33,336 bases of DNA from Cyanobacteria bacterium PR.3.49 (lineage in GTDB: Bacteria > Cyanobacteriota > Vampirovibrionia > Obscuribacterales > Obscuribacteraceae). The position numbers and the translations under genes were made by a program. The notes under the pieces are model-generated. The model searched no databases, was not told where the DNA came from, and saw only the letters and a list, made by a program, of their open reading frames with translations. The stretch lies in contig PNKB01000038.1 in the NCBI GenBank assembly GCA_013997645.1, positions 1 through 33,336 of the forward strand, written 5' to 3'. Below are positions 2,050 to 3,143 of this stretch, in pieces (the stretch's first letter is position 1; each line of letters begins with the position of its first letter).

Positions 2050-2084
2050 AAATAAGCAAACCGCCAGTCTTGCACAACTGGCGG
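2050..2084 (-). terminator. Terminator hairpin in the ileS leader
   Basis: Minus-strand arms CCGCCAGT (2084-2077) and ACTGGCGG (2068-2061) form a perfect 8-bp stem with an 8-nt loop. TTTGCTTATTT (2060-2050) follows. The U-tract is interrupted, so termination may be partial, as suits an attenuator. No gene lies upstream on this strand that would need a normal terminator, and the ileS ATG is about 50 nt downstream. On the plus strand no T-run follows. Confidence 0.6.
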
Positions 2085-2150
2085 CAGTCAAAACTTTGAA
2101 CCTGCAGCCAGCCTCAAGGAAGGATAATAATTTCCGCAATCATAAGCTGG
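2050..2150 (-). promoter_or_regulatory. Candidate transcription attenuator of ileS
   Basis: Three mutually exclusive pairings can be drawn on the minus-strand transcript. Segment 1, CCAGCTT at 2150-2144, lies just before the Ile codons and can pair with AGGCTGG at 2114-2108. Segment 2, CTGGCTGCAG at 2111-2102, can pair in 9 of 10 positions with segment 3, CTGCCGCCAG at 2087-2078; this is the antiterminator. Segment 3 also supplies the 5' arm of the perfect 8-bp terminator hairpin with segment 4. A ribosome stalled on the Ile codons would cover segment 1 and leave segment 2 free, giving 2:3 pairing and readthrough. A ribosome at the TGA (2116-2114) would cover segment 2 and let the terminator form. 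The geometry follows the textbook model. Function is inferred. Confidence 0.6.
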
Positions 2151-2173
2151 GTGGGCATTAGAACAATACTCAT
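2114..2173 (-). CDS. Candidate ileS leader peptide, Ile-rich
   Basis: A 19-codon ORF in the ileS leader reads MSIVLMPTQLMIAEIIILP then TGA. It has five Ile codons, three of them consecutive (ATT ATT ATC at 2131-2123), just before Leu-Pro-stop. ATG codons at 2173, 2158 and 2143 are all in frame, so the start is uncertain. None has a good Shine-Dalgarno; the ATG at 2158 has only a weak GAG upstream. A run of codons for the cognate amino acid immediately 5' of a terminator hairpin is the hallmark of ribosome-mediated attenuation (trp, his, ilv and pheST leaders). Here the amino acid matches the downstream gene exactly. The peptide itself probably has no function. Confidence 0.6.
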   Translation of the reverse strand: MSIVLMPTQLMIAEIIILP

Positions 2174-2321: not shown

Positions 2322-3143
2322 ATGGAATTCACTACCTTGAAAAATGCAAGAAAAGTGGCAACAAGAGCTGCTCTTGAAGCCGGAAAAATACTCAAAGAAA
2401 GACTGGGCGACGTCAGAACCATTGATTACAAGGCGGCCTACAACATCGTCACTGATGTAGATAAGGCGTCCGAAGCCAAGATTTTTTCGATCATTCTGGA
2501 TGAATTTCCCGAAGACGACGTACTCGCCGAAGAAAGCGGGTTTACCAAAGGGCAAGTTTCCAAAAGAAGATGGCTTATCGACCCTCTGGACGGGACCACC
2601 AATTACGCCCACACCTATCCTTTCTTTTCCGTTTCCATCGGCTTGGAAGAGGAAGGGCGACGGATTTTAGGCGTCGTCTACAACCCGGTAACAGATGAAT
2701 TGTTTTGGGCAGAACCAGGTGAGGGAGCCTGGTTGAACGATGAGCGACTGTTTGTGTCCGATGCCAAAACTCTGAATACCAGCCTTCTGGCGACCGGCTT
2801 CCCTCCCGACACTACAAGAGCGGTGAGAACCAACATTCTGCAATTCAAGACACTGACTGACAAAACGCACGGTGTGCGCCGTGACGGCTCGGCAGCGCTC
2901 GACCTCTGCTATGTCGCCTGCGGTCGCCTGGACGGATTTTGGGAGATGAAACTGGCGCCGTGGGACATCGGCGCCGGCAGCCTGATTGTGGAAGAAGCAG
3001 GGGGCAAAGTCACAAACTTGTCAGGCGGTCCGCTCGATATTGCCTCCGGGCATATCCTCGCCACTAACGGCAAAATCCACGACGAAATCGTCGAAGTCCT
3101 GACCAGCCTGGAAAAGGAAGATTCCTCGCAAGTCTCAACTTAG
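2322..3143 (+). CDS. suhB: Inositol-1-monophosphatase family protein (SuhB-like)
   Basis: Mg2+-dependent phosphomonoesterase of the IMPase superfamily; the likely substrate is a small sugar or inositol phosphate in the cytoplasm. Counting from the ATG at 2322, the metal ligands are Glu70-Glu71, the first signature WLIDPLDGTTNY has Asp87 and Asp90, and the second signature WDIGAGSLIVEEAGG begins at Trp214-Asp215. The length of 273 residues is normal. A GTG at 2259 would add 21 residues (hydrophobic, not conserved in the family), so I prefer the ATG, although neither start has a clear ribosome site. The gene is transcribed away from ileS. A 28-bp near-perfect palindrome follows the stop codon. 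Within the family, SuhB, CysQ and HisN-type activities cannot be separated by eye; the DPLDGTTNYAHTYPFFSVSI block is closest to SuhB/IMPase. Confidence 0.9.
   Translation: MEFTTLKNARKVATRAALEAGKILKERLGDVRTIDYKAAYNIVTDVDKASEAKIFSIILDEFPEDDVLAEESGFTKGQVSKRRWLIDPLDGTTNYAHTYPFFSVSIGLEEEGRRILGVVYNPVTDELFWAEPGEGAWLNDERLFVSDAKTLNTSLLATGFPPDTTRAVRTNILQFKTLTDKTHGVRRDGSAALDLCYVACGRLDGFWEMKLAPWDIGAGSLIVEEAGGKVTNLSGGPLDIASGHILATNGKIHDEIVEVLTSLEKEDSSQVST

Follow-up and report, generated by a model that had tools for sequence, protein, structure and literature searches.

A predicted isoleucine-responsive attenuator upstream of ileS in a non-photosynthetic family of the Cyanobacteriota

Layout of the ileS leader region

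The subject of this study is a 33,336-nucleotide (nt) stretch of DNA from Cyanobacteria bacterium PR.3.49 (contig PNKB01000038.1, family Obscuribacteraceae; hereafter the window), one contig of an incomplete 5.7-Mb genome, and in particular the region preceding ileS, the gene for isoleucyl-tRNA synthetase (IleRS). This region carries a short open reading frame (ORF) with a run of isoleucine (Ile) codons, followed by RNA segments that could fold in two mutually exclusive ways. The ileS gene occupies positions 2–1997 of the minus strand, its 3′ part running past the window edge, and all features below lie on that strand unless otherwise stated. It begins at ATG 1997 behind a directly legible Shine-Dalgarno sequence, GGAG (2005–2008), and its product is assigned as IleS by TIGR00392 (838 bits vs a cut-off of 621; 7e-252).

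An earlier, sequence-only reading of the window had described a 19-codon ORF upstream of ileS that ends IAEIIILP-stop and contains three consecutive Ile codons. The frame is indeed there (MSIVLMPTQLMIAEIIILP*, 2173–2114); its proposed start, however, did not survive the genus alignments and was rejected. Thus, ATG 2173 is replaced by ATA in L004, and the frame in L008 reads MRYR-stop, whereas the in-frame ATG 2158 is kept in all seven genus members having the leader. The leader ORF is therefore assigned 14 codons (MPTQLMIAEIIILP-stop, 2114–2158), with the putative regulatory codons ATT ATT ATC (2123–2131) placed two codons before its stop. The only Shine-Dalgarno candidate, GAG, precedes ATG 2158 by about 10 nt and only partly relieves the lack of a ribosome-binding site that had been flagged earlier.

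Just after the leader stop lies segment 2 (GGCTGGCTGC, 2104–2113), the presumed 5′ arm of an antiterminator. As had been proposed, it can pair at 9 of 10 positions with segment 3 (GCCGCCAGTT, 2076–2085), and the resulting 2:3 duplex, at −18.5 kcal/mol, is equalled by 1% of shuffles. Segment 3 is common to this antiterminator and to the 3:4 hairpin, TGCCGCCAGT tgtgcaag ACTGGCGGTT (2059–2086). The latter, noticed earlier as terminator-like, proves to be a stem of 10 base pairs (bp) with −18.1 kcal/mol and a z-score of −4.1 against dinucleotide shuffles; its stem covaries in relatives, and it is followed by a U-rich tail (TGCTTATTTA, 2049–2058).

A sigma-70-type promoter at 2219–2248, assigned by consensus match only, consists of TTGACG (2248–2243) and TATGCT (2224–2219). 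The transcription start predicted from it, at about 2212, precedes the leader ORF; a start downstream of 2143, named earlier as evidence that would speak against attenuation, is not predicted. The arrangement TTGAC-N(15–19)-TAnnnT precedes the leader in most relatives.

Conservation and covariation across the family

The family was sampled through 50 genomes, 47 of which contain the start of ileS. Leader and attenuator occur in 33 of these 47, spread over 15 genera, and the architecture is the same in each: a short ORF has 2–4 in-frame Ile codons in a row, ending 0–4 codons short of its stop, and is followed by segments 2, 3 and 4. The distance from the Ile run to segment 2 is 0–16 nt in every genome. 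The terminators range from −10.8 to −20.6 kcal/mol and have a T-rich tail, which in many relatives reads TTTTTGTTTTT.

The conserved Ile codon runs that the sequence-only reading had expected in relatives were found, and they are specific. At 33 of the 34 terminator-bearing loci, a run of at least two Ile codons lies next to the stop, while no other amino acid has such a run at more than 4 of 34; in dinucleotide shuffles of the same 34 sequences, such Ile runs appear at 1.0 loci on average (maximum 4). Runs of at least three Ile codons occur at 22 of the 34 loci, against a shuffle mean of 0.06, and for any other amino acid at none. The sole locus with a hairpin and no Ile run belongs to G001 (L009). 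Furthermore, ATT, ATC and ATA combine in twelve different patterns within the runs, as codons would be expected to do and a nucleotide motif would not. Apart from the Ile run, the leader peptides cannot be aligned across the family, as is evident from MKLGNSISIEIIRSK, MLVRIIIISS, MYTSIIIPT, MFSRAAIIITS, MSTLLVSVIII and the window's own MPTQLMIAEIIILP.

Covariation, likewise anticipated, is present in both stems. For the 3:4 stem, 91% of alignment cells are paired, and a slide by a single column lowers the pairing to 34–43%. In 31 cells both sides have changed, compared with a shuffled mean of 10.7, and the covariation score was reached by none of 500 shuffles; when each of the 15 genera was represented by a single genome, the pairing was reached by none of 2000 permutations. 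For the 2:3 stem, plain pair counts use a register that is itself chosen by pairing, so a swap control, in which each combination of segments was allowed its best duplex, is the fair test. In this control, again with one genome per genus, segments from the same genome sum to −244 kcal/mol vs −216 kcal/mol when swapped, and 6 of 5000 permutations were as good. One genus (L013, L019, L021, L023 and L026) uses another register, in which the partner of segment 2 is the 5′ part of segment 3.

Mapped on the IleS tree, presence of the leader requires 8 parsimony changes over the 47 genomes. This distribution fits an origin in the ancestor of the family followed by several losses.

A further pairing (2150–2144 with 2114–2108), suggested earlier to sequester segment 2 when the leader is not translated, fared less well. 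The minimum-energy structure of the complete leader does contain it; however, segment 2 pairs with the sequence upstream of it no better than expected by chance, the z-score being 0.4 for the window and −0.38 on average for the family, and a 1:2 protector stem was counted in 4 of 33 genomes. We therefore rejected a conserved 1:2 pairing, and superattenuation through such a stem would not be a conserved part of the device. Protector stems of this kind are found in many attenuators, not in all, and are not strictly defining.

Proposed mechanism and competing explanations

The ileS leaders have a leader ORF with cognate codons, a terminator between leader and gene, a mutually exclusive antiterminator with covariation, ribosome-compatible spacing and an upstream promoter. 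Anatomy, conservation, Ile specificity, covariation and spacing are all shown by the sequences themselves. We are highly confident that they reflect ribosome-mediated attenuation of transcription, of the kind known from trp, leu and ilv, which would respond to charged tRNA-Ile; leader translation, termination by the hairpin and the role of Ile-tRNA as the signal we infer from the anatomy and its evolution.

The device is predicted to work as follows. Transcription would start at about 2212, and a ribosome behind the polymerase would translate the leader peptide. When Ile-tRNA is plentiful, the ribosome would reach the stop codon and cover segment 2, allowing the 3:4 terminator to form and the transcript to end near 2050. 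When Ile-tRNA is scarce, it would stall on the Ile run and leave segment 2 free; this segment would then pair with segment 3 before segment 4 exists, no terminator would form, and ileS would be transcribed. These bacteria would thus very probably make more IleRS when charged isoleucine tRNA is short.

Folding calculations, which are at equilibrium and assume that the ribosome covers 15 nt 3′ of its A site, are consistent with this scheme. When the A site is placed at the first Ile codon, 30 of the 33 genomes form 2:3 ahead of the synthesis of segment 4; when it is placed at the stop codon, the ribosome covers segment 2 and all 33 form 3:4. In folds with no ribosome, 2:3 is still seen in 22 of 33.

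Several observations weigh against this assignment. First, the leader is absent from 14 of the 47 family genomes; those without it are also without a good terminator, G001 excepted. Second, G001 itself, from the same genus as the window, has the promoter and the hairpin with no leader. Third, the Shine-Dalgarno sequence of the window's leader is weak. Fourth, as remarked in the sequence-only reading, the U-tract in the window is interrupted (TTTGCTTATTT), and the hairpin tail (TGCTTATTT) is weak; the tails are strong in relatives. Fifth, in three genomes of one genus (L021, L023 and L026), segment 2 has no pairing in the standard register, although there is an alternative duplex of about −13 kcal/mol. 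Last, once segment 4 is present, the complete 3:4 stem beats 2:3 in the window and in about two thirds of the genomes; antitermination would therefore be kinetic.

As a separate observation on G001 (L009), the loss of its leader would put ileS behind an unregulated terminator; this might be a natural deletion or an assembly fault.

Two of these points, the hairpin without a leader in G001 and the absence of a strong Shine-Dalgarno sequence from the window's leader, would also suit another explanation, in which the hairpin serves as a constitutive terminator or as an insulator and an A+T-rich stretch contains the Ile-rich ORF by chance. We consider this very improbable, for segment 2 covaries with segment 3. 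Moreover, the upstream neighbour, a gene of the inositol monophosphatase family (2322–3143, plus strand; PF00459, 4.5e-70), is divergent, so that upstream of the hairpin there is no minus-strand gene whose terminator it could be or from which ileS would need insulation.

Alternatively, the leader might act on translation, either by coupling or reinitiation at ileS or by sequestration of its Shine-Dalgarno sequence, instead of on transcription termination. Reinitiation promoted by leader genes can indeed raise translation (PMC4833913). Against this, the leader stop precedes the ileS start by 69–148 nt, a distance too great for simple coupling in most genomes, the ileS Shine-Dalgarno sequence is outside the conserved stems, and a T tract follows the hairpin; a translational role is accordingly just as hard to credit as a constitutive terminator.

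Least credible of all, to the point of being nearly dismissed, is control by a T-box or another tRNA- or metabolite-binding riboswitch with the short ORF as an incidental feature: ileS is a frequent T-box target, including the translational form in some Actinobacteria (PMC1262725), but the window has no Rfam match at the gathering threshold, the T-box covariance model is unmatched, nothing relevant appears at E values up to 10 in 1990–2330, and what is conserved is an in-frame Ile run with short stems.

Ribosome-mediated attenuation, the reading we favour, has clear relatives among known systems. The ileS element resembles the enteric trp, leu, ilv and his attenuators in its run of cognate codons near the leader stop, in the position of segment 2 just after that stop, and in its mutually exclusive 2:3 and 3:4 stems with a terminator and U tract. 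It differs from them in that it would control a synthetase gene, has no conserved 1:2 stem and belongs to a family of the cyanobacterial phylum. Classical synthetase attenuators are those of pheST in enteric bacteria and of trpS and leuS in Streptomyces (PMC1262725); there too, the gene is attenuated by its own amino acid, whereas here the codons are Ile, the gene is ileS, the sequence is unrelated and the phylum is different. In Caulobacter crescentus, a ribosome-profiling study reported an ileS leader coding sequence, CCNA_03934 (PMC4117421), which likewise is short and precedes ileS; the organism is an alphaproteobacterium, and the likeness noted here is one of size and position. The ileS T-boxes of Firmicutes, and the translational ones of Actinobacteria, likewise sense tRNA-Ile charging to control ileS; they differ in that the RNA binds the tRNA directly with no leader peptide, and the window is without a T-box match.

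According to a 2016 paper, attenuation in cyanobacteria was not supported by any reliable data (PMC4833913). We thus regard the ileS attenuator as a known mechanism in a new host group, previously unreported for this branch of the phylum. Peptide-leader attenuation would be extended to ileS and, within the cyanobacterial phylum, to a deep branch, with comparative evidence enough to predict function. Translation would then serve to sense tRNA-Ile charging, a task for which Firmicutes and Actinobacteria employ T-boxes. Regulation in these uncultured bacteria also becomes testable by reporter.

Range of the device and related elements

Beyond the family, the ileS device was absent from 40 other upstream regions, almost every one from the class Vampirovibrionia, and from 40 more from other families of the phylum; among 80 ileS loci of other records, two weak matches (L069 and L092) were at chance level. 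In the Gastranaerophilales examined, which belong to that class, another gene directly precedes ileS, and the Ile-rich frames seen there (L168, L170 and L172) were rejected, as they lie inside that gene and have no attenuator.

Within the family, ilvD was found in 21 of the 50 genomes; the 29 in which it was not found include most of the nearly complete ones. Branched-chain amino acid synthesis has probably been lost in many family lineages. The ileS leader occurs together with ilvD in 15 genomes and without it in 18, the latter count being blurred by genome incompleteness. Since leaders exist on both sides of this divide, the device is not tied to Ile biosynthesis, and its retention in genomes with no detected ilvD suggests a role apart from it.

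Similar elements precede biosynthetic genes of the family. Leaders with WW runs (MTRNVTNKNWWLWS; MMTTNTANAQNWWTWCNLVDEPRWRW) lie upstream of trpE in five of five genomes, with a terminator detected in four, and the trpE element looks like a classical Trp attenuator. At these loci (L300–L304, from G006, G000, G028, G029 and G045), the conserved terminator hairpin, present in 4 of 5, reads ACCGCAGGCTT...CTGCGGT. All four leuA-type (HMGL) genes examined have Leu-rich leaders with LLL or LLLL runs and terminators; they are L285 (G006), L293 (G000), L286 (G045) and L287 (G028), an example peptide being MSINETVLNQSNRPASLLGLLLLSTC. For ilvD, mixed Ile/Val/Leu leaders were seen at most of the 20 loci examined, while the ilvD of the window's own genome (L283) has only 91 nt upstream. 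The Ile/Val/Leu-rich leaders at L282, L374–L377, L379, L382, L384–L387, L389, L390 and L284 come with terminators of −18 to −28 kcal/mol.

Because similar elements precede the trpE, leuA-type and ilvD genes, the family likely uses attenuation as a general strategy. We think it probable that this non-photosynthetic family of the Cyanobacteriota runs an attenuation regulon, comprising ileS, trpE, leuA-type genes, ilvD and perhaps a second thrS, in which the ileS attenuator is kept even in genomes that have lost ilvD; in those, it would adjust IleRS to the supply of scavenged isoleucine instead of to biosynthesis. Among the valyl-, leucyl-, methionyl-, seryl-, threonyl-, histidyl- and phenylalanyl-tRNA synthetase genes of six family genomes, no comparable device was found save at one second thrS. 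This single case, in G045 (L236, 340–540), has a Thr-codon frame (NKTTSTRV) followed by a terminator hairpin, and is a possible Thr attenuator.

The remaining feature of the ileS upstream region is a conserved motif, TAAGAAACATTAA (family form TAAGAATCATTAA), at 2266–2278, 17 bp upstream of the −35 box. It is the single match in the window at up to one mismatch, with a chance expectation of 0.06, and the family form lies upstream of ileS in about 15 of the 47 relatives, both with and without the leader. The motif is perhaps a binding site for a regulator.
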